A DNA stretch of 64,000 bases from Nicotiana tabacum (taxonomy: Eukaryota > Streptophyta > Magnoliopsida > Solanales > Solanaceae), in NCBI RefSeq assembly GCF_000715075.1, contig NC_134082.1, positions 138,868,948 to 138,932,947 of the forward strand, read 5' to 3'. Of the stretch, positions 17,467 to 45,448 are shown piece by piece. The translations under genes were made by a program, and so were the position numbers. The notes beneath the pieces were generated by a model. It did not search any database. It saw only the letters and a program-made list of their open reading frames with translations, and was not told the origin of the DNA. Position 1 is the stretch's first letter. Each line of letters begins with the position of its first letter.

Positions 17467-17486
17467 TCCCCGACAATGGCTCCAAT
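17467..17486 (-). other. Primer-binding site of Athila-like element
   Basis: The minus strand reads TTGGAGCCATTGTCGGGGAA, two bases inside the 5' LTR edge. It resembles the tRNA-Asp 3'-end complement used by Athila/Tat elements with a few substitutions. It fixes the element's orientation. Confidence 0.75.
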
Positions 17487-17488
17487 TT

Positions 17489-21445: not shown

Positions 21446-24400
21446 TGTGAGCACGAGATTTTTGCCCTATATGAATTACTCCCATAAATTCAAAACAAAA
21501 TAATTTCTTTCAGTGTTTGCAATTTTGTGGATTTTCGTGACATGTTCTGTTATTTGTTTGCATTTTGTGTGTGCATTTTAGTTAATGAAAAATACAAAAT
21601 ATGTTGCATTTGCATTTAGAGTTTAACTTTGCATTTTCTTAAAAAATTAATTATTAATTTAATTGTTTCGTAAAAAGGGAAAAATCAAATAATAATAACG
21701 TATTTTTGCATTTTTAATTTTAGTTTCGAATTTGGTAGATTTTTGTTGATTTGGTATTTAATTAATGGTGGTAATTATTATTTAGAATTAATTAATTCAA
21801 TTTGATAAGATAATTTTATTAGGAATTAATTTAGGTTTTATTTTTAATTTTAATTTTATTTAAAAGAAATTAAAGAGAAAATTGAAAAAAAAAGAGAAAG
21901 AAGAAAAACAAAAAAAGAGATCAGATTTTTGCGCCAAATCTGATTTTTCAGCCCAAAATACCCGTTTAACCCAGGCCCAAACCAGCCAAAACCCGGTCCG
22001 GTCACCCTTTTCCCCGAACGACACCGTTTCCTTTGTAACAGATCAGGATCATCGAGGTTTCTTCATCAGACGGTCCTGAAGCTAGGATCATCTGATATTT
22101 AAGTGTCCGAACCACTCAGACTCCCCCTCGTCGTCTCCAACACTCCCAAAGACCCCAACGCAACCCCACCGTGCACCGCCGCCGGAAATTGCCCTATGAC
22201 AGCGGTAGGTCTCCGATGGCCACCAAATTTACACCCTAGCTCCTTCTCCTTCTCCTCATTCCAAATCCACACCTCTTTTCCCTCGAATCACACTCAAACG
22301 TCTCAAATCTGGCTCAGAAGTTCCAAACCCTAATTCGCCGCCCTATTTTTCCACCGCCTCAACCAGCGACGCCACCACCAACCACCACCAAATTTACACC
22401 CCATTACCTCCTTCATCTTCTCTACCCTATCCCGTAGTCAGTTTTCCCCAAACATGGCTTGAGCCCTTCGAATTTCAAATATAGGGTTCGAGTTCAGAAG
22501 CCAAATTGGAGGTCATGCATTCAAGTTCAGTCCTCCGCGTTTATCTGAGTGTCCAAGTCTGTTTCATCTCAGAGTGGTGTTATTCATGTGTTCTTACCGA
22601 AGAACAGGCGAGTTGCACTATTTTGAGGTTAAATCAGAATTGTTCGATGTCTTCAAGTCTAAATCAGTAAGTTTTCTCTTTCTTTCTTCATTTTGTATGT
22701 TATTTTTGCCCTGCCTTTTCGTTTTCTCCCTTCTCTAGCATGTTCTGAGTGAAATCAGTGTTGGAGTCCAGTTTTCCTTCCCAAATTTTAGCCAAATGTC
22801 CTTTGTTATCTTCTTGGTTTCATGTTATTTTCCTGATAATAGTCTAGGTTGGATTGTTAATTAATTGGTTAATCAGTGTTGTTTTAAATTTCGTTTGTTT
22901 TAACTTTTGGGCCATTAGGGTTTTCTTTGTTCACATTTTGTTTGGGAATCTCATGATTGGCAAGGTTGGACCTGGCCCCAAAGAGAGGGTTCAGCCCAGG
23001 TCTTGCCAGAAATAACTTGTGTGGAGCCTTTGGGGTCCAACCGGACCCATTCTGGGCTGATAGGATAGGGTAAAAACAAGGAACTTGAAAGGTAATTTAG
23101 GAAATTGGGGTAAGGAATCTTGTTCTAACTAACTAGGAAGCTTCTAGAAAGCTGGGGATGGGGACTAGTTTGGAGTTCTGAGATTTAAAAGAAGGATAGC
23201 TAAGCAAAAACGAAAATTTCTGAAGGTTTAAAATGCAATGGTGAATTTATTAGAGCTGCCCTAGTGGCTTGCCTCTAAAGGCATAAGTTACTTGCATCTC
23301 AAGGGAGATTTTTCGAGAGCTGAAAATCCAGAAATAATATAGAAGCTGCATAAATTTACACTTTCATAGACTTCAAGAGCTAAAAAGGGGGTTCTGAGCA
23401 GCTGAAGGTTTTAAAAAAGAAGCTGAATCTGTTTGGTATTCCAGTTTTAGTTCACTATTGAGTGGATTTTAGTTCTGATCTTTGTGTGATATCATTGTGA
23501 ATACAAAACTGGGCTAAAGTGGTCTTTTCTCAATCATTTCTGGGCTGATTTTGTTGCTGATTCATGTTCCTGCTACTGATTCCATTACTGATTCTTCATT
23601 TCTCTGTTTTGCTTTTCAACTTCCAAGTATTTCCTTCAAACCTTGAATGGAAATGAAGCTTGTTATGGCAATTGTGCTTGAATTATGTAATGCGAGTCGA
23701 AGAAATTGATCGTTACCTTTTCCCGGTTAACTTACCAGCTTTGATGTTTATTATAAGTCGTCTTCACGTTCCTCCTAGGCTCATATAAGTTACTTAGTTT
23801 ATGGTCATTATCTTTTGGATTTTTTATGGTAATGTATAAATGTTTCCCTTTTACTCACTTAGCTTGAATGTTTTAAAGTTCTTGATCATGTGTAGGAGCA
23901 ACAGAGAATTATTGTAAAGAAATTTTAGTAGTATTCAGTGTATTTCAGGTCTGTTTGGGATTTGTTGAGACCTATGCTGTTTGATTGAATTCATGTTGCT
24001 CAGCTTTCTTTTAGCTATACGCTTGCAGATTGAGGCTTGTTTATTATACATACATTGTTTGCTGCTGAGGAGACTCGATATCGAGTCTTAAGGATCCCGG
24101 CGGGTTACCTTGAAATCTGGCTTGGGCTCGCTTGGGCCCAAAGTTCATTTTTCTTGTGATGTGGCCTTGTGAATCCAAGGCAAATATGGGCTTGAGGTGC
24201 ATACAGGATTAGAATTATAATTTTAGTTGCTCTATGTTTGAATAACTAAGAAAGCAAAGATGTTGGTTTAATCGCTGCTCAACATAGCTTTAACTGATTG
24301 GTCTTCAATAAAAATATGTACAATGCTGAGTTCTTGGGTATGATCTGGCATTGGAGCGTGCAATTGGGCCTTTAACGTTGGCCCCGTGCCTTCGACGTGC

Positions 24401-25333
24401 TGCAAATTTCGTTCCAAGACTTCTGTTATCTTTTGTGATTTGGGCCCGTGACTGATTTGGGCCGGCTGTTGGTTGGGTTCTATATTGATGAGACGTTGTC
24501 CCATTTCGTTAAGTCACTTGTTTGCTTTCGACGGAATTCAAATTACCTTAGACCTTTAGCTAACTAATTAGACCTTTTAAAAATGGGTCGAGGCCTGCCC
24601 GATTAGTCAAATGTATAACTTATGGCCTTCAAAAGCTCAATTTCGAACTTCCTTTAAAAATTGGGAACGAGTTGTGTCGTGTCAAATAAAATCTTAGAAC
24701 GCATGGCCCTTTACTAATTTCTTATGATTTAGATATAAAATAACAAATGTTCGTAGTTTGCTTTAGGCCCGTTTAATATACCACCGTGATCGTGGACACG
24801 TTCGCGTGACATGATTACGGTTTCTAAAAACAAAATCGGAGTATGCGTTTGCGCAACTTCGGCTAAACTTTCTTAATAATAATAATGCGTTATTAATTGT
24901 GGACACGTTCGCATGACATGATTTTGACACGCCAAATAGACAGGTATACGTACGCATGACCCGTTTCAAGATAATTGTCTTAATTATAAAGCGGTAAAAG
25001 GTAAATGCACATAGGTTCTAAAATCAGTAATTAAATAATTTTAGTAAGCCAAGTATGATCAAAGCGACCGTGCTAGAACCACGGAACTCGGGAGTGCCTA
25101 ACACCTTCTCCCGGTTTAACGGAATTCCTTACTCAGATTTCTGGTTTGCAGACTGTTAAACAGAGTCAATCTTTCCTCGATTCGGGATTCAATCAGTGAC
25201 TTGGGACACCGTAAATCTCCCAAGTGGCGACTCTGAATTTTTAATAAATAAATCCCGTTTCGATTGTCCTTTAATTGGAAAAACTCCCTTTATTTATACC
25301 CTTACGGGGCGTAGTAAAAAAGGAGGTGTGACA
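21446..25333 (+). repeat. 5' LTR of Ogre element
   Basis: 3,888 bp, starts TGTGAGCACG and ends GGTGTGACA. It holds no protein domain. The centre (22,080-22,430) is C-rich and contains pyrimidine-rich segments. Compared with the 3' LTR it retains about 100 bp (around 24,018-24,117) and about 55 bp (around 24,830-24,885) that are missing there. Otherwise only about three differences per hundred bases were seen in the part compared by eye. Confidence 0.9.
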
Positions 25334-25337
25334 GCTC

Positions 25338-25355
25338 TGGCGACTCTGCTAGGGA
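25338..25355 (+). other. Ogre primer-binding site
   Basis: TGGCGACTCTGCTAGGGA, four bases after the 5' LTR. It has the form of a tRNA 3'-end complement; Ogre elements are known to use tRNA-Arg. The exact tRNA was not checked. Confidence 0.8.
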
Positions 25356-26557
25356 AGGAACCCAGAATCTCTGGTTCAGGGTTCAAGAATTCGAGCTTGA
25401 TAATATGATTTTGTTTGGCTTTATTGTTAATGTTACTGTATTCTGTGAATCTTTTGTGCTAAATGCTATCTGTTTACGCTTTAATATTATTCGAATTGTA
25501 TATAACTGTCTTCTTACGCCACTTATCTGAGTCTTCTGGAAATGGTGCATACGTTCGCGTAGCCCACTTTTTCTCTAGAAATTATACCAAATAGAACGAG
25601 GCTGGGCAAGCGACAAGGCCGGGTAGACTTCAGTGCTTTCGGTACGTCACCCCCTCTTCGGCCCCAGTTGTCCGCTCGGGTACCCCAAGTCTAGACCAAA
25701 ACCCCAGGATTTAAACCTAGAAAAAACATAGCCTCATGTCAGATCCTTAGTAGGAACGTTTGTTTACATCATGTGCATTTGACTTAGGGGACTCAACACA
25801 GGGGTTGGGTCCGTCTAGGACAGGTATGGCTGAAATAACAGACCATCCTGATGCATTCTACGTGCTATGTGAACATTTATTTGTTTTGGCTTGCATGCTG
25901 ACCGGTCAGGGAAAATAAAGCAAAAAAGGAAAACCAAGAGTGATATAGGGAAGGAAATAAAGCCCGGTTCTAAAAATTCTGGTATTTGAAAAACGTCCTG
26001 AAACTCTGCCCAAAATTTTTCAAAAAGAGTTATTTCAACAGAGTCAGACACTGTGTTCTTTCAAATGTGTCAAAACTGATCGAACTACACAGGTCTGATT
26101 CTCACCGGATGTGGGATACGTAGGCAACATACATAAGGTTCGGCCTTATTTTTGAAAAAAAAAAGAAAGAAAAACAAGAAAAGAGAGTCGGTGGTCGAGT
26201 GAATGCAATCTGGATTTTTTATCAAAATAAGCCGATCTAGCTTCGGCAATGTCTTAAACCATTCTTGCCGAGATAGCCTCAGAGTATTCTTCAGTTTTCG
26301 AAAGGATATTTTCGTAAAAGAATGGACAAGTTTGTGAAGGGTCATAAAATAATTCCCCCCTGCCTCAAAATTCGCGTGAAATTGGGAAGGGGCCGCGTTT
26401 GCAAAAACAGTCACTTGGATAAAGTTGGCATATAGGGGAAGAAATTATGGTTCTTTTCTTCTTTTCTTTTCTCTTTCTTTTTCTTTTCTTCTTCAAAAAA
26501 CTGTTTACAAAAGGGTCCACTCGAGTCAACCCTAACCTTAATTTTCCACAGGAACAA
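25356..26557 (+). other. Ogre 5' UTR
   Basis: Non-coding leader. Contains boundary motif copy 1 (26,082-26,150), a purine-rich run after it, a long pyrimidine tract (26,448-26,495), and a good splice-acceptor context (CCCTAAC...TTTTCCACAG at 26,550) just before the ORF1 start. A leader intron is therefore possible. Confidence 0.55.
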
Positions 26558-28622
26558 ATGAATACCATCCAGGATCCGCCAGAAGTGGTCAGGGAACATG
26601 CTCAGTTGCACTTGCATATGTGGTGGAATGATCTAGATGAAGATGGTCAGAAATGGGTGAAAAAGCAATTGGGTGCTCTTATAAACATTTTTGAGATCAA
26701 ACCACGGGAAGATCTGATCAAGGCTTTGGTAACTTTCTGGGATCCTGTCCACAATGTCTTTCGTTTCTCGGATTTTGAGATCACCCCTACTTTGGAGGAG
26801 ATAGCTGGGTACATTGAATTCAGACGGGATTTGAGGAAGCAACAACTTATATTTCCAAGGGCTCCATCGGTGCACAAGTTCTTTGACCTCCTGAATATCA
26901 GTAAACAGATAAATAAAGAACGTGTGAGCAATGGGTGTTGTGCTTTCGATTTCTTATACTTCAGGTTCGGGCATTCTACTGGTTTTGAAACGCATGAAAA
27001 GGGACGAGCAACAAACAAGACAAGGGCCTTTGGCAAATTCATCGCCGGTTCGCATTTATTGTGGCATTCTTGGGGATCATGGTTTTTCCAAATGAGAAAG
27101 GGACGGTGGATATTTGTATGGCTAGAATTGCACAAATCCTCGCTACCAAGGAAGATCATACACTTGCCCCGTTGGTGCTGGCAGATATTTATCGAGCATT
27201 GACCTTATGCAAAGTAGGGGCTCAATTCTTTGAAGGTTGCAGCATCCTCCTGCAAATGTGGTTGATTGAGCACCTTTGCCATCATCCCAGATTCATGAGT
27301 TATGGTTCGAGCCCAAATAACTTCGTCACTAGTTACGATGAGAGGGTAAAAGATTACAACGCACGAGAAGGGTTTGAAGCATGGGTCTCTCACTTGAAAG
27401 TTCTTAAAGTAGGTCAGGTCGAGTGGACTATAGGATGGCTCCCGAGGACAGAAGCCATCTATATGACTGATAGCAAAGGCTACCTGAGGTTAATGGGTGT
27501 AAGGAGTATCCATCCATATGCACGCAGAGGGTCTTGAGGCAATTGGGAAGGTATCAGATTGGGCCTGAAGATGAAGATCTAAGCACCCATGTCATAGAGT
27601 TACGTACAGAAGTGGCATTGCCCGAGGCTGTAGTTCAGCAGGATTGGAATAACTACCGATATCTAAAAAATGGCACCCAGGTACCAGACATCACTAAGGG
27701 GGAAGTAGATCCAAATTATGCTGCTTGGTTTGAGAAAATGTCTTATGTAAACAACTAGCCAGAGCCCGAAAGGCCCGCCAAAAGGCCTCATGTTCAAGCC
27801 TTTAATGATAAAATTCAGGAGAGGTTAGCTTGGGGGGAGAAGGAAAAGGAATATAAGGCCATCATCCATGGTCTACAAGAAGAATTGAGAAATTTCACCT
27901 TCAACAATGATTTGCAGACACAAAAGGCCGAAGGTAAAAGGAGAAGATTGGTGCGAGAAAATGAAGCCCTCAGAGCTCAGGTACGAATGTTGAAAATTGA
28001 AGCCGAGAACCCAGGCCGAAGCAGGAAAGATGAAAGGCTCATTTATAACCTTACTCAAAAGGTACGTGACTATGAAGATGACCTGCAGAAAGCTGAGTCT
28101 GAACTTGCAAATGCACGGGTGAGGTTGGCTAAAAGTGCCGAAGGGCGTGCAGCTTTCGTTCAACAGATGAAAGAAAGATATGAGAAAGGGGTCGTAGGTT
28201 GGGAAAAGGCAATTGGCAACCTCGAGGGTGAAATGGCTAAACAAACCAAAAATTTTAAGGCTGAAAGAGAACATTGTTATGCCTTAATGGCACGGCTAGA
28301 AAGAGACTTGCAACAACTCCAAGAGCAGAACCAGGTAGCCGAACGAACTTTGGAAGCTAGAACCGAACAAATTGGGCGTTTGTTGCAAGATAAGGGCGTC
28401 ATAAGAGAGCGAGTCAAAAGGGTCGCTAACTACATCGTGATGAAGTGTAGTAGCTGTGAGGATATGACTAGATCTATGTTCTTCTCTACTATGATGATTT
28501 TCGTTCACCGGGTAATGGAAGATCTCTACCACCTCCAAGGGGATTTAGCGAGTCGGGCCGCGGAAAGGCCGAATGATACCCCGTGGGTCCCAGGGGCAAT
28601 TGAGACACTGATGTATTCGTGA
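26558..28622 (+). pseudogene. Ogre ORF1 protein (DUF7745 / plant-mobile-domain-like plus coiled coil), frameshifted
   Basis: I place the start at 26,558 (MNTIQDPPEVVREH) because upstream codons in frame are a pyrimidine tract. The N-terminal part (FSDFEITPTLEEIAGYIEF; then LADIYRALTLCKVGAQFFEG and LQMWLIEHLCHHP) resembles the DUF7745/plant-mobile-domain-like proteins of Tat elements. The C-terminal third (27,885-28,500) is a long Lys/Glu/Arg/Gln-rich coiled coil. Function is unknown; a structural or RNA-binding role is only a guess. Frameshifts lie near 27,050 and 27,530 and a stop at 27,756-27,758, giving four separate frames. It ends at TGA 28,620. Confidence 0.7.
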
Positions 28623-29300
28623 TTTCTTGAGTCTGTATTTTCTTTCCGTTAAAGTCTACCAGTTGTTTTGGAGTCTGTATTTCTTTTATCAGAGTATGTG
28701 GGTTGTTTGTTTTTTGAGTCTGTATTTCGTCTTTCATCAGAGTCTGTTAGTTTCTATTTAAGTTTATTTCCGAGTCCTATTATGAAAATTTGAAAATTCC
28801 AAAAATATTTTATTATTTTTATCTCCAGAACTACGCTCGGTCTGATTCATGCGGGGTCATGATACGTAGGAAATCTCCATAGGATTCAACCGTAACCAAA
28901 TGATAAAGAGAGAAAGAAAATAAGAGGAAAAACAAGAGAGTAAAGAAAAAAAAAGAGAAAAGAGAGAGAGCGGAAAAACAAGAAAGAAAATAGAGAAAAT
29001 AAAAAATCAAGAGAGAATAAAAACAAAGAGAGAATGAAAGGAAGGAAAAGAAAAAGAAAGAAAAGGGGGAAGTTTGCAATCGAAAGTAAGAAAAGGCCGG
29101 GATGACGCATGCAACCGATCAAATACATAATAGAGTCGGTTAACTGTTTAGGTGCATTCATGCCCAATGTGCGGTTGCCAATTTGTTAAAGCCTAATCGC
29201 TAACAAGGTTGTTGTTGATGTATTGAGTCCAGGTAGGTGGTTAGTTGATTGGCATTCTGGCAACTCACTCATACAACACCGATCAAAAGATAGGCTGAAT
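28623..29300 (+). other. ORF1-gag spacer of Ogre
   Basis: Non-coding. It has GAGTCTGTATTTC-type short repeats (28,629-28,745), boundary motif copy 2 (28,829-28,895), and a 160-bp purine-rich tract (28,905-29,075), whose long open frames on either strand are composition artefacts. Confidence 0.7.
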
Positions 29301-31165
29301 ATGGCCAACCAGGAACCGGAAACAAGTATTGTCGACCCATCAAAAGAAGTGGAAGAATTGGACGTTAATGCGATGACGGAAGAAATATATAAGCTAAAGC
29401 AACAGATGGCTGAAATGTACCAAGCCTGGGCTAAGGGGCATCCACCACCGGCTTATCCCGCCAACCCTGCTTATATCCCACTATCAGCCTAACTTCCGGA
29501 GCCTCCCACTGTGAACTCATCTCCAGCCTTTCCCCTCTACCAACAATGCCACGATACCACTTCCCATACTTCTCAAGCTCTACCACCCAAACAAGTCCCA
29601 TACCCTCCCCCACCAATTACACCTGTTTTTATGGCACCTCCACCTGCTACATTACATCGATCTTATAGTAAACCCCTGTTCCAAACTCACGACAACCAAT
29701 ACTATCCCCCTGAACCCAACTTCAAAGTTCCAGAACCATATCCTTACACCCCTCATCTTGATCTCCCAGCAGAGACCGAGAAACCACCCAAAATTCCCGA
29801 GCATGAAGAGATGATCAGAAAGGTCAAAAGCTTAGAACAGTCGTTCCGAGATATAAGGGGGTTGGGAGGTCAAGTAAGTGTGGCCTATAAGGATTTATAT
29901 TTGTTCCCAGATGTTCAGTTTCTAGCGGGGTTCAAAATGCCCAAGTTTGATCTGTACGATGGGCATGGTAACCCAGTAGCACTCTTAAGAGGATTTTGTA
30001 GCAAAATGAGAGGAGCGGGTGGAAGAGATGAGTTGCTGATGGCATATTTCAGCCAAAGTTTAAGTGGATCGGCCTTAGAATGGTATACCAGACAAGATCA
30101 CAACAGGTGGTACACATGGGACGATTTGGCCCAAGCCTTTGCCTGCCATTTTCAGTACAACCTCGAAATTATCCTAGACCGTCTGTCATTGACAAAGCTT
30201 GAGAAGAAGCCCGGTGAGAGCTTCAGGGAATATGGATTCCGTTGGAGAGAGCAAACAGCGAGGGTTTACCCTCCGATGAAAGAAAGCGAATGGTTGATTA
30301 TTTCTTGCAGGCTTTGGAACCCACTTATTTCGATCACTTGGTGTCAGCAGTAGGTAAGTCCTTTAATGAAGTCGTAAAAATTGGAGGCATGGTTGAAGAG
30401 GGACTCAATTCCAACAAGATCATGAGTTATTCGGCTATCAAAGAGACTACTCAGGCAATTCAAAATGGTACTGGGGATGTGCTCGGGAAGAAGAAGGAGG
30501 AGGATGTTGCGATAATTGAGTTAGGAGCTTGGGTTGGATCCAAGAACCTTCCCCATTACTACAACCAGCCACGACCCTATCCCCAAACTTACCCCCACAC
30601 TCCATATAACCCACCACAACACTATTACCCACCGCCAGATCACCATATTTCTATCTATCACGCACAAACCTATACCCAACCTCCCGTTCACTCACAATGG
30701 CATGCGCCGGCCCCTCAAAGTCCATACCTAGCTCCACAAAATGCCCATCCACCCCCAAGAGCCTACAGAAATCCCCCTGGAACAGGTTTCCGGCCAAATC
30801 AAGCCTTTAAGAATAAGAGGTTGCAGAAACAGAAGACCTTCACTCCTTTGGGAGAATCATATGCTAGTTTATTTCACCGACTAAGATAGTTGGGTATGTT
30901 GAATCCGATCGAGGCTAAACTGTCGAATCCCCCTCCCAGAAATCTTGACCACTCGGTGAGTTGTGAGTATTGTTTAGGGACCCCGGGACATGACAGAGAG
31001 AAAAAGCTATAAATTGAAAACAACCATTCAAGAACTCATTGACACCAATCGAATTGAGGTCCAAGCTCCGGAGGCGCCCAATATCTATCAGAATCCCTTG
31101 CCGGCCCATCATAAAACAAATACTATTGAGATAGTGCATAAGGGAGGGGAGCCTAAGAAACCTTA
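29301..31165 (+). pseudogene. Ogre gag (capsid and zinc-knuckle nucleocapsid)
   Basis: Start at 29,301 (MANQEPETSIVDP). A Pro/Tyr-rich N-terminal region (29,440-29,790) is followed by the retrotransposon gag core with FKMPKFDLYDGHGNP and MAYFSQSLSGSALEWY (29,930-30,090) and KKPGESFREYGFRWREQTAR (30,210-30,260). The knuckle CEYC.GTPGHDREK sits at 30,960-31,005, with the last Cys lost to a frame change. Gag forms the virus-like particle and packages element RNA. There is a stop at 29,490, a frameshift near 30,270-30,350 and a stop at 30,887. Confidence 0.85.
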
Positions 31166-31175
31166 GCAAACCATC

Positions 31176-32844
31176 ATGATGATTCAGGCTAGTGAAGCCA
31201 GGCCATTTGAAAAGTCAACAAGTGAGAAGTCTGTGATCAAGTTGAACAGGGCAAATAATGAACCATCTATAGAGGTTAAGAAGGGGTCCTCAAGTGACAT
31301 TGCAAGAAAACATGAAAGAGCAAAAGTGGTTATTCCAGGAGTGACGAACAAGCCTGTGGTAATTGTGAAGGGCGCCCCCACGGATCCTGTCATTATCAAA
31401 CCGGTAACTCAATTACAGATAGTCAACAATAAGGCAGTCCCATGGAATTATGAACGAGTGACCGTGACTTACAAAGGAAAAGAGGTTAAAGAAGAAGTGT
31501 GTGAGAATCATGGTTTGACTAGATCGGGGACATGCTTTGCCCCCGAAGAGTTGAGAAAAGCTAAGACCTCAAAAGATAATCCAGTGTTGGTGAAAAAAGC
31601 GGTGACTGAGGAAGAAGCAGAAGAATTTCTAAGAAAGATGAAAGTGCAAGACTATTCCATTGTGGATCAGTTAAGGAGGACACCAGCTCAGATCTCGCTC
31701 TTGTCATTATTGATCCATTCAGACGAACACCGTCGTGCTTTGATGAAGATCTTGAACGAAGCCCACGTTCCTGACAAAATCTCAGTAAACCACTTGGAAA
31801 AGATAGCTAACAAGATATTTGAGGTAAACAGAGTCACTTTTTCTGATGATGAGTTGCCCGTGGAGGTACCGAGCACAATAGAGCCCTCTATCTGATAATG
31901 AAATGCGAAGATTCTGTGGTTACTCGGGTACTGGTTGACAATGGGTCTAGCGCGAACATTTGTCCTCTCTCCACATTGAACAAGCTGAAAGTGGAGGATG
32001 AAAGAATTCACAAGAACAATATTTGCGTTCGGGGATTCGACGGTGGAAGGAAAGATTCAGTCGGGGATATAGTGCTTGAGCTCACAATAGGGCCAGTTGA
32101 ATTTACTATGGAATTACAGGTGCTAGATGTGGTTGTTTCCTATAATATGTTATTGGGACGACTTTGGATTCATGCTGCCAAAGCAGTCCTGTCTAATCTG
32201 CATCAAATTGTCAAGTTTGAATGGGATCGACAGGAAATTATCGTACACGGCGAGGATAATTTGTGTGTGCCCAATGATGCCATTGTTCCGCTCATAGAGG
32301 TTGAAGACGACAAGGGGCCATGGGTTTATCAGGTTTTCGACACAGTATCGGTAGAGAAAATTCCAGAAGGGAAGTGCGTCCCAACTCTAAAGGTAGCTAC
32401 TACATCAGTCATGGTAGCCGTTGAAATATTGAAAAATGGTTTTGTACATGGCAAGGGTTTGGGTGCATCTCTGCAAGGTATTGTGCAGCCAGTTTCTCTT
32501 CCAAAGAATCTGGATACTTTTGGTCTAGGGTTCAAGCCTACAGTTGCAGATGTGAGACGAGCCCACAAAATGAAACAGAAAGCATGGGCATTGCTAAGGC
32601 CAATCCCGCGCCTGTCCAGATCATTCGTCAGGTCGGGTATCAGAAAGCAATTATTGTAAAAGGTTCCTGGATCATTGATTGGTGCTGATGGAGAGTTGGA
32701 AAAGGGGTTCGAAAGGTTATTTGCCGAGGTTAACATGGTTGAGGCTGGGGAAGGGTCCAGCAAGGCAGATGTGCAATTCATGGGACCACGTGCAAAAGTC
32801 AACAACTGGGAAGCTACTCCTCTTCCTACCCGGAGGGAGTCTTG
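31176..32844 (+). pseudogene. Ogre protease region with G-patch-like motif
   Basis: An aspartic protease of retropepsin type. The active site reads VLVDNGSSANI (about 31,927-31,960; Asp present, Thr/Ser replaced by Asn), with the flap/second-loop region IGPVEFTMELQVLDV and YNMLLGRLWIH after it. Downstream, GFVHGKGLGASLQGI (about 32,440-32,485) looks like a G-patch, a nucleic-acid-binding motif reported in some retroelement proteases. Internal stops are at about 31,893 and 32,657. The frame then runs to the candidate splice donor at 32,845 rather than a protein end. Confidence 0.8.
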
Positions 32845-33021
32845 GTAGTGGGTTTTGATTTTCTTTTAGTTGTCTGGATTATTCCAGGGTCTGTAATTCA
32901 GATATTATGTTCCGTCCAGTTGGATGTGTTAAAACCCTGTTATCTTTAAATTCAATGAAATGCAATTATTCCTTTCCCTTCATTTCTTCTAATTTTATTT
33001 TTGTTTTCTTCTTTTGTACAG
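32845..33021 (+). other. Candidate Ogre intron between protease and RT
   Basis: 177 bp. Donor GAGTCTTG/GTAGTGG at 32,845; acceptor after a T-rich tract, CTTTTGTACAG, at 33,021. Unspliced, the upstream frame hits TAG one codon past the donor. Joining the two sides keeps the frame open into the RT ORF (SFYADINDMTCLRNL). An intron at this place is a known Ogre feature. Confidence 0.75.
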
Positions 33022-35105
33022 TTCTTTTTATGCTGATATCAATGACATGACATGCTTGAGGAATCTTCGGCCCAGTTTTAAAAGCCAATCTAACTCTGAA
33101 ATAATAATACAAGAAATTGAGTGTGATGACGAGTTGGAATTTGATGATGATGAGGCCTATAAAGAAATTAGTAAGGAACTAAGTCATTTTGAGGAAAAGC
33201 CCAAACCTAATTTGAACGATACAAAAGCAGTTAATCTAGGGGACCAAGATAATGTCCGTGAAACTAAAATAAGTGTACATCTGGAATCTCAACTCAGGGA
33301 TGAGATAATTAAAGCACTGTTCGAATACAAAGATGTTTTTGCATGGTCTTATGATGACATGCCGAGTCTAAGCACTGATTTAGTGGTTCACAAGTTGCCC
33401 ACTGACCCGGCATTCCCTCCTGTCAAACAAAAGCTGAGAAAGTTCAAAACGGATATGAGTGTAAAGATCAAAGAAGAGGTCACCAAGCAGTTCGATTCCA
33501 AAGTCATTCGGGTCACGCGGTATTCCACCTGGTTAGCCAATGTTGAGCCTGTGCCGAAGAAGGATGGCAAGACCATGGTGTGTGTTGACTATTGGGATCT
33601 CAACAAGGCGAGTCCAAATGACAATTTTCCATTGCCGAACATCCATATCTAGATTGATAATTGTGCCAAACATGAGATTGGTTCTTTTGTGGATTGTTAC
33701 GTGGGTTATCATCAGATCTTAATGGACGAGGAAGATGCAAAAAAGATGGAATTCATCACGCCGTGGGGAACGTACTACTATCGGGTCATGCCATTTGGCT
33801 TGAAGAATGCTGGGGCAACCTACATGAGGGCAATGACAATAATATTCCATGATATGATACACTAGGAAATCGAGGTGTACGTGGATGATGTGATCGTGAA
33901 GTCTAGAAAGCAAGCTGACCATGTGAGGGATCTGAGGAAGTTCTTCCAAAGGCTTCGCAGGTACAATCTCAAGCTTAATCCTGCAAAGTGTGCTTTTGGG
34001 GTGCCGTCTGGAAAGTTGTTGGGGTTCGTAGTCAGCCGCCGGGGCATTGAACTGGATCCATTGAAAGTCAAGGCCATCCAGGAATTGCCACCTCTGAGGA
34101 ACAAGACCGAGGTGATGAGTTTGTTGGGGAGATTGAATTACATCAGCAGGTTCATCGCTCAGCTCACGACAACTTGTGAGCCTATCTTCAAACTGTTAAA
34201 GAAAGATGTTGCGGTCAAGTAGACAGATGAATGTCAGGAAGCCTTTGATAAGATAAAGGGGTACTTGTCAAGTCCACCCGTGTTGGTCCCGCCAGAACTA
34301 GGGCGACCTTTGATTCTATATTTGATGGTTTTGAACAATTCATTCGACTGTGTATTGGGTCAACATGACATCACTGGTAGGAAGGAGCAGGCCATATATT
34401 ATCTCAGCAAGAAGTTCACATCTTACGAGGTTAAGTACACTCAGCTTGAGAGGACGTGTTGCGCCTTAACTTGGGTAGCCCACAAGTTGAAACATTATTT
34501 GTCCTCTTATACTACTTACCTCATCTCTCGCTTGGATCCGCTGAAGTATATCTTCTAGAAGCCTATGCCCACGGGAAGGCTTGCAAAGTGGCAGATCTTG
34601 CTCACAGAATTTGACATTGTCTACGTGACTTGGACCGCGATGAAAGCACAAGCATTGGCTGACCACTTAGCTGAGAATCCTGTGGATGAAGAATACGAAC
34701 CTTTGAAGACTTACTTCCCTGATGAAGAGGTAATGCACATTGATGAGTTGGAACAGATTGAAATGCCAGGATGGAAACTTTTCTTTGATGGGGCTGTTAA
34801 CATGAAAGGCATTGGGATAGGAGTGGTACTTTTCTCTGAAACAGGGCATCATTACCTTGTTACGGCTCAGCTTCGGTTCTACTGTACTAACAACATGGCG
34901 GAATACGAGGCATGCATTTTAGGTTTGAGGATGGCTGTGGATATGGGTGTCCAGGAAGTCTTGGTCTTGGGTGACTCGGACCTACTGGATTCAGGGAGAA
35001 TGGGAAATACGAGATTTAAAACTCATACCGTAGTGATAATGCTTGCGCGATCTTTGCCAGCGGTTTCAGTCAATAGAATTCAGGCATATCCCAAGGATTT
35101 ATAAT
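33022..35105 (+). pseudogene. Ogre reverse transcriptase and two RNase H domains
   Basis: RT motifs in order: KVIRVTRYSTWLANVEPVPK (33,500-33,560), MVCVDYWDLNKASP (33,577-33,618), TPWGTYYYRVMPFGLKNAGA (33,762-33,820), the catalytic YVDDVIVKS (33,876-33,905), and GKLLGFVVSRRGIELDP (34,010-34,060). RNase H follows (ILYLMVLNNSFDCVLGQ..., YYLSKKFTSYEVKYTQLERT), then the second, archaeal-type RNase H typical of Tat (KLFFDGAVNMKGIGIGVVLF; NNMAEYEACILGLRMAVDMG). Stops at 33,651, 33,864, 34,220 and 34,558 are all TAG. A frameshift near 34,990 follows the second RNase H. Confidence 0.9.
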
Positions 35106-36490
35106 GAAGTTGTCGATGCTTGGGCTATTCTGGCGTCAATGTTACATCATCCAAATAAGGCTTATGTGGACCCTTTGCAGATTCAGGTCCGTGATCAGCA
35201 TGCTTACTGTAATATGGTGGAAGAAGAACTTGATGGGGAGCCATGGTTCCATGATATAAAAGAATACATCAGGATGGGGGAATATCCGGTACAGGCCACA
35301 GGTGATCAGAAAAGAACAATTCGACGATTGGCAAGTGGATTTTTCTTCAGTGGAGGGGTGTTATACAAAAGAACTCTAGATCTTGGATTGCTAAGATGCA
35401 TAGATGCCAGACAGGCCACAACTATCATGACTGAGGTACACTCTGGAGTTTGTGGACTGCATATGAGTGGGTACATTCTAGCAAAGAAAATTCTCCGAGC
35501 AGGTTATTACTGGCTCGCTATGGAGCGAGATTGCATCTGTTTTGTGTGCAAGTGTCATCAGTGCCAGGTGCACGGAGATTTGATTCATTCCCCACCATCT
35601 GAATTACATACAATGTCGGCACCATGGCCCTTTGTTGCTTAGGGCATGGATGTCATTGGGCCAATCGAGCCAGCAACATCAAACAGACATAGATTTATTC
35701 TAGTAGCCATTGATTATTTTACCAAGTGGGTTGAAGCGAAATTTTTTAAATCTTTGACCAAGAAAGTGGTGGTCGATTTTGTGCATTCAAATATCATTTG
35801 TCGGCTTGGGATTTCGAAGGTAATCATCACGGACAATGGCGCTAATCTCAACAGTCACCTGATGACGGAGACATGTCAGCAGTTTAAGATTATACATCGC
35901 AATTCCACCCCGTACCACCCTAAGGCGAATGGAGCAGTCGAGGAGCCAACAAGAATATAAAGACGATACTTCAAAAAATGGTGGAAGGTTCAAGACAATG
36001 GCATGAAAAGCTGTCGTTTGCATTGCTGGGTTATCGCACTACTGTCCGTACTTCAGTAGGGGCCACTCCTTATTTGTTGGTGTATGACACGGAGGCAGTA
36101 ATACCCGCAGAAATTGAAATCCCATCCCTTCAGATCGTCGCTGAGGCGAAAATTGATGATGTTGAGTGGGTCAAAACCTGCTTGGAGTAACTAAGTCTGA
36201 TTGATGAAATGAGATTGGCAGCAGTATGTCACGGCCAATTGTACCAACAGAGAGTGGCGAGAGCATATAACAAAAAAGTACATCCACGGAAGTTCGAAGT
36301 GGGTCAGTTAGTGTTGAGACGTATCGTGCCTCATCAGGCTGAAGCAAAAGGAAAGTTCGCCCCAAACTGGAAGGAGCCGTTTGTCGTAACTAGAGTGTTG
36401 TCCAATGGCGCGTTATATTTGACAGATGTAGAAGGGAAATGTGTAGAAATGGCTATCAATTCCGATGCAGTCAAGAGATACTATGTATGA
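35106..36490 (+). pseudogene. Ogre integrase
   Basis: The HHCC zinc domain reads HSGVCGLHMSGYILAKKILR...CKCHQC (35,440-35,565). The DDE core has Asp in GMDVIGP (35,643-35,665), Asp in ITDNGAN (35,827-35,848) and Glu in NGAVEE (35,927-35,945). The C-terminal part has LGYRTTVRTSVGATPYLLVY (36,027-36,085) and KFAPNWKEPFVVTRVLSNGA (36,353-36,412), ending at TGA 36,488. It inserts element cDNA into chromosomes. TAG at 35,640 (Trp expected), a frameshift near 35,950 and TAA at 36,188 break it. Confidence 0.9.
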
Positions 36491-37159
36491 TTTCTTTGTT
36501 TGATTGTACTTGTTTGTATTTGGCATATTTTGAAGATTGAAATGACGAAGGCGTTTTGTTCTGCTATCGAAACACTTTATCCCTCGTCATCCCCTTTGAG
36601 CCTTATTTATTTTTCTTTCATACCCCCTTTCGGAATCAATAGCAATATCAGAAACACAAACATGAAAGATAAGAAAAGGAAGAAAAGGGAAAAAGAAAAG
36701 GAAAGAGAAAGAAAAGAATGAAGAAAAAGAAGAAAAGAGAAAAGAAGGAGAAAAATAGTAAAAGAAAAAGAGAGAAGAGAAAAAGAAAAAAAAGAGAAAG
36801 AGAAAAAGAAAAATCGCAACAACAAAGTAATTTCTATGACATGAACTACGTTCGACCTGATTCCTTTTAAGGATACGTAGGCAGCCTCACGGTTCGGTCT
36901 CATCAAACAAAAATCCAAAAGCCCCCAAGCAAGAAACTGGGGCAGAAGTCGTGGTTGTTCTGAGAAATCTGATTCCGAAAGTTGTAATTTTAACCCATTT
37001 GAATTGTTTTGAGCCTTTTATGCCCTTCCTTACTAACCCTGTCCAAAAGGCCATATTACGTTCCAAAAAAAGACCTTCTGATCAGTCTTTGAGAAATGTC
37101 AAGTCGAGCAGGTAAAGGTAATTCATGTCAGGGGCAACACTCTGGTTCAAGCAGGAAAA

Positions 37160-37415
37160 ATAAAAATGAGAGAGTCTTATTGGTGAAAACCTTCACAGGC
37201 GCCGTAAGGCAACGGGAGTTGAAAGAAATAAAATAAGAGAGTCTTATTGGTGGAAACCTTCACAGGTGCCGTAAGGCGACGGGAGTTGAGAGAAATTAAA
37301 ATGAGAGAGTCTTATTGGTGAAAACCCTCACGGGCACCTTGAGGCGAAAGTGAGTTGAAAAGTCAACAAGTGAGAAAGGTTTGTTGGTGGAAAACTATTT
37401 CAAGGCACCGCAGGA
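37160..37415 (+). repeat. Tandem repeat, about 68-bp unit, three to four copies
   Basis: Units start near 37,163, 37,231, 37,299 and (diverged) 37,366 with AATGAGAGAGTCTTATTGGT and contain CACAGG.GCCGTAAGGC and ACGGGAGTTGA. It lies in the Ogre 3' UTR. Confidence 0.85.
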
Positions 37416-38689
37416 TGAACAAGGTCAAGGCTTGGGTAAAGTAATCAGGTCATGGAAATTCTGAGGCGACAAAGTACGGCAACTGAAAGTTGATTAGTTG
37501 GACAGATTGGGCCGATTAATTCGAAATACATGTCATGATCATTGGTACCAGCTGTTCCACTCAGATAAGTTTCTTTTTCTTCTTCCCTTTGTAGCAGTCA
37601 TCTAGTTTTGGATTCTTCTTATCCTTAACCCGCAAAGTCATTGCATTTCATTTTCTTTTAGGTTGATTTGTCTAAGATGTTATAATATTAGTCTTGTCCC
37701 AAGTAAGTGGAAAAGAATTTCAAAGCTCATTACCAACTTCCAAAATTGCAAATCACAACGTGGTTAGAGCATACTAAAGACAACATGATGTAAGGTGGGA
37801 TACAGGGGATCACTAGAAGTTTCACTGGTAGAATGATTTGGTAATGTCATGGGAGATGCAAAGGTTCAGATAAAGGGGTCAGAGGTGTGAAACAACAACA
37901 TGGGTATAGAACACTCGGTTCGTCAAAGGTCATGAGATTTGAAAGTCAGTCAGAAAGTCAAAGCGGTTCAGGGCCAGTTTGGGAAAGCAATTCAGAACAA
38001 AACAATGGAGTGGAAAGATCTTCAGCAAGAAGGCCATCAGCTAACCACCACTTTAAATTGATAAAATTTTCTTTGATTGAAACAGGGGTAGAAAATTCGT
38101 TTGTTTCGGAGAAACTCTCCGTAGGGGAAAGAGCAAGCATCAAAACAAGTTTGACCGTAAACTTTCAGGACCCTCCTGGAAAATGGGACCTAGTTAAAGT
38201 TCAAAAATAGCATAATCTATCATAAATGTATCCCAAAATAATATAAGTTAGCTTAGAAGTTTGCACGTTCGAGATAGGATTCAATTAGGAGTTCCCAGGA
38301 CCCTCATGAATAATGGGACATAGCTTTAAGATTTCGATTAGATAATAATATTTAGCGTAAGTTCTGCTGTAGGGTAGTATAATTCAGCCATGAAAGTTGT
38401 TACTCTTAAGATAAAACTTGACTTTTGATTTTCAGGACCCTCCTGGATAATGGGGAGTAGTTTAAGACCCTCTTAGATAACAAGATTTAGCAGAAATCAC
38501 ACATGTAGAAGACATAACTTAGATTTTAAAAATTGTCATTCAGTTAAGAGTTGTTAGGACCCCCTGAATAATGGGATCTAGCTTTCAATTCTTAGTAATA
38601 CTTGGTAATATGATTTAGTTTTACACTCACATCTGTGCCCAGCCACCAAACTGGGGCAGAATAATTTTCTTTGTTTCATCTATTTTGAA

Positions 38690-39430
38690 GTCAAGAGCCC
38701 GCCTGGAGAGTAGGGAATACATTTAGAGTTGAAGCCAGGAGCCCGCCTGGAGAGCAGGGAATACATTCAAGTGAAGCAGTCAGGAGCCCGCCTAGATAGA
38801 AGGGAGCACATCTCAAGATGAAGTCAGGAGCCCGCCTGGAAAACAGGGAATACTTTCAAGTTCAGCAGTCAGGAGCTCGCCTGGAGAACAAGGGAGTACA
38901 ATTTAAGTTTTAGCTTTCAAATTCTGTGTTTTGTCTATTTTGAAGTCAGGAGCCCGCCTGGAGAGCAGGGAATACATTCAAGCGCAGCAGTCAGGAGCCT
39001 GCCTGGAGAGTAGGGAGTACATCTCAAGATGAAGTCAGGAGCCCTTGGAAAGCAGGGAATACTTTCAAGTTTAGCCGTCAGGAGCCCGCCTGAAGAACAA
39101 GGGAGTATAATTCAAGTTTTGGTATTCAAAATTCTTATTGATATTCGGTAATGTGATTTGTTTTACACTTACACATGGGCCCACATACCCAAACTGAGGC
39201 AGAAAATTTTCTTTGTTTTGTCTATGTTGCTGAAGTCAGGAGCCCGCCTGGATAGCTTGAGAATAAATTCACGTTTTGAAGGCAGAAGCCCGCCTGGATA
39301 GCATGGGAATACATTCAAGTTCAGCGATCAGGAGCCCACCTGGAGAACAAACTTGGAGAACAAGGGAATACAGTTCAAGTTTTGGAAATCAGGTGCCCAC
39401 CTGAAGAATAAGGGAGTTCACTTCAGAATG
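38690..39430 (+). repeat. Minisatellite in Ogre 3' UTR, about 45-bp unit, about 13 copies
   Basis: The core GTCAGGAGCCCGCCTGGAGA is followed by AGGGAATAC and a variable tail ending in alternating forms. A higher-order period of about 250 bp is visible: the block 38,695-38,943 is repeated in the same unit order at 38,944-39,190. Confidence 0.85.
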
Positions 39431-39855
39431 CAATTCAAGTCGGCAACAAAGGAACTTCACTCGAAGAATAAAGGACATCAAGGCAACAAGAACTACAAGA
39501 TCAAGTTTGAAGATATAGATAGGACTTTTGTAATCCATAGATCATATTCTAGTCTAACTTCATGTTTTATTTTGACATGGTGTAATAAGGGGGTTCAGTA
39601 AGCAGTAGCAGCAGCAGCAGCAACAACAACAGTGGAATCACAGCTTCATGGTAGTCCCAGCTACCAAAACTTCCCGAACTACACTGACCTGATTCCTTTT
39701 TAGCCAAGGATATGTAGGCAACCTCGGAAGCAGGGTGCGGTCAAATCTTTCAAAAATACTTCCCACAGAGTATTCAAACGGGCAAAAATCACTCGTATTC
39801 GCTCACTTTATCTTTGCACGAAAACTCTTCGTGTTTCCGGGCAAAGAGGGGCAGC

Positions 39856-42800
39856 TGTGAGCACGTGATTTTTGCCCTATATGAATTACTCCCATAAATT
39901 CAAAACAAAATAATTTCTTTCAGTGTTCGCAATTTTGTGAATTTTCTGACATGTTCTGTTATTTGTTTGCATTTTGTGTGTGCATTTTAGTTAATGAAAA
40001 ATACAAAATCTGTTGCATTTGCATTTAGAGTTTAACTTTGCATTTTCTTAAAAAATTAATTAATTTAATTGTTTTGTAAAAAGGGAAAAATCAAATAATA
40101 CTAACGTAGTTTTGCATTTTTAATTTTAGTTTCGAATTTTGGTAGTTTTTCGTTGATTTGGTATTTAATTAATGGTGGTAATTATTATTTAGAATTAATT
40201 AATTTAATTTGATAAGATAATTTGATGAGGAATTAATTTAGGTTTTATTTTTAATTTTAATTTTATTTAAAAGAAATTAAAGGGAAAATTTAAAAAAAAA
40301 AGAAGAAAACAAAAAAATAGATCAGATTGGGCCAAATCTGATTTTTCAGCCCAAAATACCCGTTTAACCCAGGCCCAGACCATCCAAAACCCGGTCTGGT
40401 CACCGTTTTCCCCGAACGACACCGTTTCCGTGGCAACAGATCAGGACTGTCGAGGTTTCTTGATTGGAAGGTCCTGAAGCTGGGGTCATATGATATTTAA
40501 GTGTCCAAACCTCTCAGACCCCCCCCCCGGTCGTCTCCAACACTCCCAAAGACCCCAACCCAACCCCACCGTGCACCGCCACCGGAAATCGCCCTACGGC
40601 GGTGGTAGGTCTCTGATGGCTACCAAATTTACACCCTAGCTCCTTCTCCTTCTCCTCATTCCAAATCCACACCCCTTTTCCCTCGAATCACACTCGAACG
40701 TCTCAAATCTGGCTCAGAAGTTCCAAATCCTAATCCGCCGCCCTATTTTTCCACCGCCTCAACCGTCGGCGCCCCCACCAACCACCACCAAATTTACACC
40801 CCATTACCTCCTTCATCTCCTCTACCCTATCCCTTAGTCAGTTTTCCCCCATACATGGATTGAGCCCTTCAAATTTCAAAAATAGGGTTTGAGTTCAAAA
40901 GCCAAATTGGAGGTCATGCATGCAAGTTCAGTCCTCCGAGTTTCTCTGAATGTCTAAGTCTGTTTCATCTCAGAGTGGTGTTATTCATGTGTTCTTACCG
41001 AAGAACAGGTGAGTTGCACTATTTTGAGGTTAAATCAGAATTGTTCGATGTCTTCAAGTCTAAATCGGTAAGTTTTCTCTTTTTTTTCTTTGTTTTGTTT
41101 GTTATTTTTGCCCGCCTTTTCGTTTTCTCCCTTCTCTAGCATGTTCTGAGTGAAATCAGTGTCGGAGTCCAGTTTTCCTTCCCAAATTTTAGCCAAATGT
41201 CCTTTGTTATCTTCTTAGTTTCATGTTATTTTTCTTGATAATAGTCTAGGTTGGATTGTTAATTAATTGGTTAATCAGTGTTGTTTTAAATTTCATTTGT
41301 TTTAACTTTTAGGCCATTGGGGTTTTCTCTGTTCACATTTTTTTTGGGAATCTCATTATTGGCAAGGTTGGACCTGGGCCCAAAGAGAGGGCTCAGCCCA
41401 GGCCTTGCCAGAAATAACTTGTGTGGAGCCTTTGGGGTCCAATCGGACCCATTCTGGGCTGATAGGATAGGGTAAAAACAAGGAACTTGAAGGGTAATTT
41501 AGGAAATTGGGGTAGGGAATCTTGTTCTGACTAACTAGGAAGCTTCTAGGAAGCTGGGGAGGGGGACTAGTTTGAAGTTCTGAGATTTAAAAGAAGGATA
41601 CCTAAGCAAAAACGAAAATTTCTGAAGGTTTGAAATGCAATGGTGAATTTATTAGAGCTGCCCTAGTGGCTTTCCTATAAAGGCATAAGTTACTTGCAGC
41701 TCAAGGGAGATTTTTCGAGAGCTGAAAATCCAGAAATAATACAGAAGCTGCATAAATTTACACTTTAATAGACTTCAAGAGCTAAAAAAAGGGTTCTGAG
41801 CAGCTGAAGGTTTTAAAAAAGAAGTCGAATCTGTTTGGTATTCCAGTTTTGGTTCACTCTTGAGTGGATTTTAGTTCTGAGCTTTGTGTGATATCATTGT
41901 GAATACAAAACTGGGCTAAAGTGGTCTTTTCTCAATCATTTCTGGGCTGATTTTGTTGTTGATTCCTGTTCCTACTACTGATTCCATTACTAATTCTTCA
42001 TTTCTCTGTTTTGCTTTTTAACTTCCAGGTATTTCCTTCAAACCTTGAATGGAAATGAAGCTTGTTATGGCAATTGTGCTTGAATTATGTAATGCCAGTC
42101 GAAGAAATTGATCGTTGCCTTTTCCCTGTTACCTTACCAGCTTTGATGTTTATTATAAGTCATCTTCACGTTCATCCTAGACTCATATAAGTTACTTAGT
42201 TTATGGTCATTATCTTTTGGATTTTTTATAGTAATGTATAAATGTTTCCCTTTTATTCGCTTAGCTTGAATGTTTTAAGGCTCTTGATCATGTGTAGGAG
42301 CAGCAGAGAATTATTGCAAAGAAATTTTAGTAGTATTCAGTGTATTTCAGGTCTGTTTGGGATCTGTTGAGACCCATGTTGTTTGATTGAATGCATGTTA
42401 CTCAGCTTTCTTTTAGCTGGCTTGGGCTCGCTTGGGCCCAAAGTTCATTTTTCTTGTGATGTGGCCTTGTGAATCCAAGGCAAATATGGGCCTGAGGTGC
42501 AGACAGGATTAGAATTATAATTTTAGTTACTCTATGTTTGAATAACTAAGAAAGCAAAGATGTTGGTTTAATCGCTGCTCAACATAGCTTTAGCTGATTG
42601 GTATTCAATAAAAATTTGTACAATGCTGAGTTCTTGGGTATGATCTGGCGTTGGAGCGTGCAATTGAGCCTTTAACGTTGGCCCCGTGCCTTCGACGCGC
42701 TGCAAATTTCGTTCCAAGACTTCTGTTATCTTTTGTGATTTGGGCCCGTGACTGATTTGGGCCGGCTATTGGTTAGGTTCTATATTGATGAAACGTTGTC

Positions 42801-43583
42801 CCATTTTATTAAGTCACTTATTTGCTTTAGACGGAATTCAAATTACCTTAGACCTTTAGCTAACTAATTAGACCTTTTAAAAATGGGTCGAGGCCCGCCC
42901 GATTAGTCAAATGTATAACTTATGGCCTTCAAAATCTCAATTTCGAACTTCCTTTAAAAATTGGGAACGAGGTGCGCCGTGTCAAATAAAATCTTAGAAC
43001 GCATGGACCTCTACTAATTTCTTATGATTTAGATATAAAATAACAAATGTTCGTAGTTTGCTTTAGGCCCGTTTAATATACCACCGTGATCGTGGAGATG
43101 TTCGCGTGACATGATTACGGTTTCTAAAAACATAATGCGTTATTAATTGTGGACACGTTCGCATGACATGATTTTGACACGCCAAACAGACAGGTACACG
43201 TAAGCGTGACCCGTTTCAAGATAATTTTCTTAATTAAAAAGCGGTGAAAGGTAAATTCACATAGGTTCTAAAATCAGTAATTAAATAATTTTAGTAAGCC
43301 AAGTATGATCAAAGCGACCGTGCTAGAACCACAGAACTCGGGAGTGCCTAACACCTTCTCTCGGGTTAACAGAATTCCTTACTCGGATTTCTGGTTCGCA
43401 GACTATTAAACAGAGTCAATCTTTCCTCGATTCGGGATTCAATCGGTGACTTGGGACACCGTAAATCTCCCAAGTGGCGACTCTGAATTTTTAATAAATA
43501 AATCCCGTTTTGATTGTCTTTTAATTGAAAAAACTCCCTTTATTTATACCCTTACGGGGCGTAGTAAAAAAGGAGGTGTGACA
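39856..43583 (+). repeat. 3' LTR of Ogre element
   Basis: 3,728 bp, TGTGAGCACG...GGTGTGACA. Shorter than the 5' LTR by two internal deletions: at about 42,418, where TTTTAGCT joins GGCTTGGGCTC, and at about 43,130, where AAAACA joins TAATGCGT. Confidence 0.9.
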
Positions 43584-45124: not shown

Positions 45125-45448
45125 GACACGAAAAAGGTGTGCTCATAAGCGTAAGTTTCTTATTGCTTTTGAAATTGTTGTTTTGGTTACATACTTGGAG
45201 AAATTTATAGGTTTTTGGGTGTTGGCTAGCGTTCCAGTCCCAGTCCTAATCTATTTATTCCCTTCATTGGTTGACTTGGAGAATATTGAGAGGTCGAGCA
45301 ATGAAATAGTAACCACGACCCTACCATCACGTACTTCAACTCGAAGCATTGCCTTTGCCACCTCGTTAAAAACCTCCTTGAGAAAACCCAAATGGGACAA
45401 AACTCAAGTGAGGGAAAAAAGAGTACGACTTGGGGGACGCTTTTTCTG

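Follow-up and report, generated by a model that had tools for sequence, protein, structure and literature searches.

A pseudoknotted RNA motif predicted in four spacers of Ogre-type retrotransposons in Nicotiana tabacum

Results

The host element and its four motif copies

A stretch of 64,000 nucleotides (nt) from Nicotiana tabacum contig NC_134082.1, called here the window in its whole length, carries a long terminal repeat (LTR) retrotransposon in whose spacers one non-coding motif occurs four times, in places termed slots 1 to 4. The element runs from 21446 to 43583 (22.1 kb end to end), has LTRs of 3.7-3.9 kb and is bounded by a perfect 5-bp target-site duplication, AGGCA. Its size and very large LTRs, together with an extra open reading frame (ORF) before gag (DUF7745 upstream of Retrotrans_gag), are those of Ogre elements, and by these sequence features it is consistent with the Ogre group within the Tat clade of Ty3/gypsy elements. 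One RVT_3 match was seen in its domain search. The sequence TGGCGACTCTGCT at 25338 is presumably the Ogre-type (tRNA-Arg) primer-binding site (PBS). The PBS of Ogre elements is described as antisense to tRNA-Arg (PMC9289625). The features of the element, in window coordinates, were as follows.

21446..25333, + strand: 5' LTR of the Ogre-type host element (identity of its pieces to the 3' LTR 94.1% and 92.3%; AGGCA duplication)
25338..25350, + strand: PBS-like sequence TGGCGACTCTGCT, adjoining the 5' LTR
26082..26146, + strand: motif slot 1, in the gap between leader and ORF1 (62.6 bits, 65 nt)
26447..28622, + strand: ORF1 region (DUF7745), reading frames interrupted
28828..28892, + strand: motif slot 2, in the gap between ORF1 and gag (65.6 bits, 65 nt)
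29511..35642, + strand: gag-pol region (Retrotrans_gag, G-patch, RVT_3, Integrase_H2C2), reading frames interrupted
36843..36900, + strand: motif slot 3, after pol (73.3 bits, 58 nt)
39676..39743, + strand: motif slot 4, 112 nt 5' of the 3' LTR (71.9 bits, 68 nt)
39856..43583, + strand: 3' LTR (LTR comparison; AGGCA target-site duplication)

A covariance model of the motif gave four matches in the window, all in element sense, and no further match in the 64 kb at E <= 1. The original prediction, which had located four copies here, put their size at about 60 bp and denied that they were tandem duplicates, was right on all three counts: the model recovered every copy on the + strand, with lengths of 65, 65, 58 and 68 nt, and the same places recur in other copies of the element. 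Just 5' of slot 4, at 39650-39665, lies a perfect hairpin (GGTAG-TCCCAG-CTACC) whose stem pattern, GTAG-N6-CTAC, was retained in 9 of 17 slot-4 copies; it may be part of the 3' signal.

A predicted pseudoknot and its covariation

The fold proposed for the motif (about 57-69 nt) comprised a helix P1, formed by CTACG(T) and (A)CGTAG, a second helix P2, in which the 4 bases before TGAT pair with the 4 bases after a nearly invariant 3' C, a hairpin P3 between TGAT and the 3' strand of P1 (P1b), and a hairpin P4 between P1b and the 3' strand of P2 (P2b). Because P1 and P2 cross, the motif is a pseudoknot. The unpaired GAA, UGAU, the U before and GCA after P1b, and the C before P2b were nearly invariant. 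In the four window copies the helices were laid out as follows.

Slot 1 (5' to 3'): GAA, P1a CTACAC, P2a GGTC, TGAT, P3 TCTCAC/GTGGGA, P1b ACGTAG, GCA, P4, C, P2b GGCC
Slot 2: P1a CTACGC with P1b ACGTAG; P2 GGTC/AACC (3 of 4 pairs); P3 TCATG/CATGA
Slot 3: P1 36846-36851 with 36875-36880; P2 (pseudoknot) 36854-36857 with 36896-36899; P3 36862-36865 with 36870-36873; P4 36884-36886 with 36891-36893
Slot 4: P1 CTACAC/ATGTAG; P2 GACC/GGTC; P3 TCCTT/AAGGA

The core 13-mer of the motif, GGATACGTAGGCA, occurred 18,700 times (9,456 + 9,244) in the 4.0-Gb genome vs. 22 times (15 + 7) for a reversed control. Two sets of loci (L numbers) were taken around core matches: 20 long stretches (10 kb each) surrounding early matches on contig 1, all of them similar to the window element, and 40 short stretches of 240 bases. 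The four helices were proposed by eye from the first copies and recorded before the short stretches were obtained. L001-L006 and L008 were excluded because they duplicate places in L009 and later loci. When up to 2 mismatches in the core were allowed, 104 matches were found, of which 97 were parsed and 7, without the GAACTAC or TGATT parts, were dropped. From 95 rows (93 distinct), 52 copies at less than 93% identity, plus slot 3 of the window, added by hand, made up alignment A1 (53 copies), which was aligned by MAFFT without structure. An exact 13-mer had chosen the first 20 stretches, so P1b is conserved there by selection of the sample, while P2, P3 and P4 were unselected. The covariance model was built without P2 and run over 264 kb, where it gave 57 matches at E < 1e-12, all in element sense, the next match coming only at E = 0.71. 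Match lengths ranged over 58-69 nt in the first set, and the gene-less family described below contributed one of 57 nt.

P2 varied in sequence and kept its pairing, with the forms GACC/GGTC, GGTC/GACC, GGTT/AACC, AACC/GGTT, GACT/AGTC and AGTT/AACT. All four P2 pairs were formed in 76 of the 93 distinct copies, vs. a permutation mean of 47.3 and a maximum of 57; among the hold-out copies from the short stretches it was 29 of 39 distinct copies (permutation mean 20.1, maximum 28), and in 8 copies chosen by position and aligned by the P2-less model P2 paired at 32 of 32 cells. In A1, 91.4% of 950 cells were paired (81.1% when shuffled, 17-39% when slid), and 124 two-sided changes were counted vs. 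40.7 in shuffles (0 of 500 as high). RNAalifold returned P2, P3 and P4 from the alignment alone. Against a tree-based null that preserves each column's number of changes (100 alignments), P2 was the top 4-column stack anywhere (score 2.485 vs. a null maximum of 1.676 and mean of 0.865), and P3 ranked third, behind a stack shifted by one from P2. In an all-columns test similar to R-scape, the five column pairs with the highest scores, out of 3,403, were all predicted pairs, including 8-70, which extends P2. G-U pairs outnumbered A-C mismatches 110 to 44 (110 to 84 including the innermost P1 position), an asymmetry that favours the sense strand; CpG deamination on both strands could account for some of the G-C to A-U variation in P1. 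The RNA-level structure that a check of covariation had been proposed to reveal was thus borne out, with P2 above the tree nulls and fully paired in the position-chosen copies, and the motif is almost certainly a structured RNA.

Slot layout across related elements

Landmarks from tblastn and blastn gave the element order LTR, PBS, leader, slot 1, ORF1, slot 2, gag, pol, slot 3, tail, slot 4, LTR, with slot 3 about 0.9-1.2 kb after the integrase (INT) match. All four slots were present in 11 of the 12 elements examined at both ends: the window element, L011, L013, L016, L018, L019 and L028, and the composites L010+L080, L014+L077, L015+L078 and L023+L079, for which the 5' part of L010, L014, L015 and L023 was supplied by another stretch, lying at the expected distance on the same chromosome and strand. 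Absence of the motif from other copies, or its random placement in them, was looked for and not found, apart from L012 (slot 1 only within 10 kb), L027 (slot 3 present, no slot 4 within 5 kb) and the composite L026+L081, which is considered in the Discussion. A divergent lineage (L009, L025 and L026, INT about 51-57% identical to the window) had slots 3 and 4; its upstream part was checked in one copy. Extra copies were seen in the leaders of two pol-less elements (L016:892-956 and L018:714-778) and after slot 3 in L028:6142-6200.

The motif stood out as an island of conservation, with an identity of 0.76-0.81 vs. 0.44-0.63 for its flanks and 0.46 for random sequence (means of same-slot pairs, restricted to those with motif identity below 0.9). 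Mean identity was 0.80 between copies in the same slot of different elements (371 pairs) and 0.65 between copies in different slots of one element (63 pairs); for 56 of 57 copies the closest match was the same slot elsewhere, counting the extra copies 1b and 3b as slots 1 and 3. The longest reverse transcriptase (RT) pieces of L010, L015, L017 and L021 were 56-61% identical to the window. The resemblance within slots across elements implies that the layout with four slots predates the lineages under comparison.

The distance from slot 1 to ORF1 was variable: the ATG at 26447 of the window lies 301 nt away, and in L077 residue 37 of that piece is reached after only 87 nt. In the 9 copies of the first set, purines made up 0.58-0.89 of the 150 bases that follow slot 2. 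Purine-rich tracts had been described as adjoining the motif, which holds for the window after pol (purine fraction of 0.89 in the upstream 150 bases) but not for L010, L015, L017, L021 and L022 (0.42-0.53).

Elements without pol or recognisable genes

In L011, L016, L018, L019 and L028 no pol matches beyond remnants were found, and gag and all four slots were kept; the remnants were a 39-residue RT piece in L011 and, for ORF1, a 44-residue piece in L028. The slots persist in these five elements where ORF1 and pol are lost. L013 went further, with no tblastn gene match and no ORF longer than 138 aa; its three ORFs of at least 100 aa had no Pfam match above the cut-off. The motif-free, coding-less stretch between slots 2 and 3 of L013 gave 40 long genome matches (901-1141 bases) when 40 of 6,360 candidates were scored: L013 itself and 39 others at 85-91% identity. 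L013:3760-4900 and L069-L076 represent a multi-copy family of Ogre derivatives without recognisable genes.

Slots 1-3 were present in 8 of 8 loci of this family (L013 and 7 others; 24 of 24 motifs), although the loci had been found without using the motif. All eight matched the window leader and tail, and in none did tblastn pick up the ORF1, gag or pol pieces of the window at E <= 1e-3. The identity of the motif within the family was 0.98, 0.96 and 0.93 for the three slots (92.5-98%), and that of neighbouring 65-70-base blocks ranged from 11% to 94% (gaps counted, simple repeats included). The original prediction had the motif tracking transcription units; a marking of transcription or translation units is not supported by slots that persist without ORF1, without pol or, in the L013 family, without any recognisable gene. 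Since the slots are kept where the genes are lost, two of its proposed roles, internal promoter and translation reinitiation, are unlikely. The multiplication of a family that is without recognisable genes and has kept the motif is a strong hint that the motif works for the RNA on which it lies.

Other repeats in and around the element

The tail between slots 3 and 4 (window 38667-39425) contained degenerate repeats around GTCAGGAGCCCGCCTGGA, and similar repeats occurred in some relatives' tails. A 60-bp tandem array lay just beyond the 3' LTR, at 44248-45244. A second pair of long direct repeats (9971-11668 and 17485-18917, about 90% identical) resembled another LTR element, in which the covariance-model search found no motif copies.

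Discussion

A cis-acting handle on the element's own RNA

A motif that acts in cis on the RNA of its own element is very probably what these spacers contain. What is read from the sequences is the predicted four-helix structure, the conservation of the slots and their retention in elements without pol, without ORF1 or without any recognisable gene; from this we infer the role of a handle. Non-autonomous elements need LTRs, PBS, polypurine tract (PPT) and recognition of their RNA, and not translation of genes of their own. A gene-less element has to retain whatever allows foreign proteins to select, prime, copy and insert its RNA. The LTR, PBS and PPT being known, selection of the RNA is the requirement still to be accounted for, and a repeated structured handle fits it. 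Like a packaging signal, the motif was kept by elements that need mobilisation in trans, in 24 of 24 slots and 8 of 8 copies.

An element-encoded protein would recognise the motif on genomic RNA, either its own or that of a non-autonomous element, for packaging and reverse transcription. The protein would be the Gag of the autonomous partner or, less probably, the ORF1 protein; the several handles on one RNA would act additively, and the nearly invariant unpaired bases would make contacts specific to the protein or to the fold. As a whole, a cis-acting pseudoknot in four spacers that serves as a packaging or recognition handle is the best explanation that we can offer, and it falls a little short of being probable. 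Packaging in particular, the best fit among the four roles that the original prediction had guessed at, is unproven and put forward tentatively. That the motif founds a new RNA family, with the strand order of the hepatitis delta virus (HDV) ribozyme and none of its known catalytic features, and forms a distributed packaging or recognition code read additively by Gag or the ORF1 protein, is a possibility of a more speculative kind. The Gag sequences of L020 (about 385 on the minus strand, 9616 in element sense), L024:9344 and L028:3541 showed an atypical single zinc knuckle, C-x2-C-x5-H-x4-C.

Several results weigh against this explanation, as regards both the structure and the role. In the pairwise test only the P2 pair 12-66 rose above every null, the next helix pairs having E values of at least 0.7. 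Two of the five measures made on A1 did not exceed the shuffles: the number of pairs with two-sided change was 11 vs. 10.1 (174 of 500 shuffles as high), and that of further pair types 28 vs. 27.3 (228 of 500); in A4, the alignment of position-chosen copies, further pair types were even lower than in shuffles (14 vs. 16.2). Within P2 the sense-strand asymmetry was absent (12 to 12). Folding energies were ordinary (z from +0.38 to -1.04 in 8 single copies), nested folding being unable to score a pseudoknot, so the case for structure rests on covariation. As to the role, L026+L081 had slots 3 and 4 and no slot 1 or 2 where these were expected upstream, L081 having no motif and no recognisable LTR, leader or ORF1, and in the gene-less family only L013 itself was seen to have slot 4. 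The packaging signals known so far group near the 5' end, unlike two of the four motif copies, which lie 3' of pol.

The main rival of the packaging handle, and one that fits nearly as well as packaging, is a nuclear-export or stability element comparable to the constitutive transport element (CTE) of Mason-Pfizer monkey virus (MPMV), the RNA transport element (RTE) of intracisternal A-particles (IAP) and the MusD transport element (MTE): the spacer copies would recruit host export factors for the long, unspliced or partly spliced Ogre RNA. A cis role of this kind would explain retention in gene-less elements, partial splicing creates a need to export unspliced RNA, and the two copies 3' of pol lie at the usual site of such elements. 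Four copies per RNA, however, exceed what known export elements use, and the Rfam search revealed no homology to any family or to a described transport element. Splicing in only a subset of transcripts is reported for pea and Medicago Ogre RNA (PMC6317226), and IAP and MusD are reported to use structured export elements, RTE and MTE acting in LTR elements and MTE containing a pseudoknot (PMC12786077). Taken by itself, export seems unlikely, though worth keeping in view. An improbable role is that of a translation element (an internal ribosome entry site, a 3' cap-independent element or a reinitiation signal) for ORF1 and gag. Slot 1 does precede ORF1 and slot 2 gag, and the 150 bases after slot 2 are purine-rich, but no recognised ORF follows slots 3 and 4, the spacing between slot 1 and ORF1 is inconstant, and slots 1 and 2 are kept without ORF1 and without any recognisable gene.

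The compact pseudoknot with its nearly invariant unpaired bases, placed before coding blocks and the 3' region, might instead be an exoribonuclease-resistant RNA that halts 5'-3' decay and leaves protected fragments, those of non-coding elements included. There is little likelihood of this: the motif matched no family of Rfam 15, its helix order is unlike that of flavivirus and dianthovirus resistant RNAs, and reverse transcription needs full-length RNA, not fragments. An HDV-like self-cleaving ribozyme that processes the genomic RNA at the borders of coding blocks would account for the helix order, P1a-P2a-P3-P1b-P4-P2b, which is that of HDV-like ribozymes, and for the nearly invariant C directly before P2b (91 of 93 copies). 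It is nevertheless very improbable. The P3 loops vary (GAAA, AAA, TTTA, CGGAT, CGGGGT, TTTAGCC and others) and provide the G and C that follow with no consistent partner in a P1.1 pairing; the C abuts P2b directly and is followed by no NRA-like stretch, so a CNRA-type J4/2 is missing; P1 begins with C in 92 of 93 copies and the GAA upstream of it is conserved, so the 5' flank is constrained; and every inserted copy derives from an RNA uncut across its motifs. Searches of Rfam gave no ribozyme family either, at E <= 1 for the element and for 20 of the 40 short loci and at E <= 10 for slot 3. A feature of the DNA, such as an internal promoter or protein binding site, or mere inherited similarity, would suit a motif that is short, conserved and present in many copies; compensatory changes in the pseudoknot above tree-based nulls are unexpected for a DNA site or for relatedness alone, which makes this reading, too, scarcely credible.

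Some identities were tried and dropped. The motif was not a known RNA family, cmscan of the element (E <= 1), slot 3 (E <= 10) and 20 of the 40 short loci giving only microRNA, long non-coding RNA and transfer-messenger RNA matches far below the gathering scores. It was not a tRNA or RNA polymerase III box: ARAGORN, run with the bacterial code, detected no tRNA in the 64 kb, and GGTTCGGTC is part of P4/P2b and changes with its partners. Unusual folding energy was not seen as a signature in the 8 copies, and purine tracts were not general enough among the relatives to be part of the signal. The idea of a Gag without zinc knuckle that would hence need the motif was given up because, although the strict pattern was absent, the variant C-x2-C-x5-H-x4-C occurred in L020, L024 and L028. 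A search of IMG/VR with one exact pattern gave 0 matches.

RNA selection, export and packaging are hardly studied in the giant LTR elements of plants. An RNA so well delimited (about 60 nt) and with so many exact core matches in one genome is a concrete target for protein pull-down, and it could account for the way in which gene-less families exploit autonomous ones. Its covariance model also marks the spacers of elements where protein annotation fails.

Comparison with known systems

The host shares giant LTRs, an ORF before gag and tail repeats with the Ogre (Tat clade) elements; no description of the motif RNA in Ogre elements was found in the open-access papers searched. Similar sequences may also occur in other dicot genomes. 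With HDV-like ribozymes the motif shares the order of its strands, but it is without P1.1 and the CNRA J4/2, and has the conserved 5' GAA and a P1 of 5-6 bp. The export elements of MPMV, IAP and MusD differ from the motif in their helix layout and in their use of one site per RNA, as against four slot-specific copies. They are likewise structured cis RNAs of an LTR element or retrovirus, and MTE is reported to have a pseudoknot (PMC12786077). The 5' RNA pseudoknot of Ty1 and the packaging signals of retroviruses are comparable in that the motif, too, is a pseudoknotted cis RNA in an LTR retrotransposon, of a kind thought to govern the selection of RNA. Ty1 has one such structure, formed over a long range near the 5' end, whereas the motif consists of small local units repeated along the RNA.

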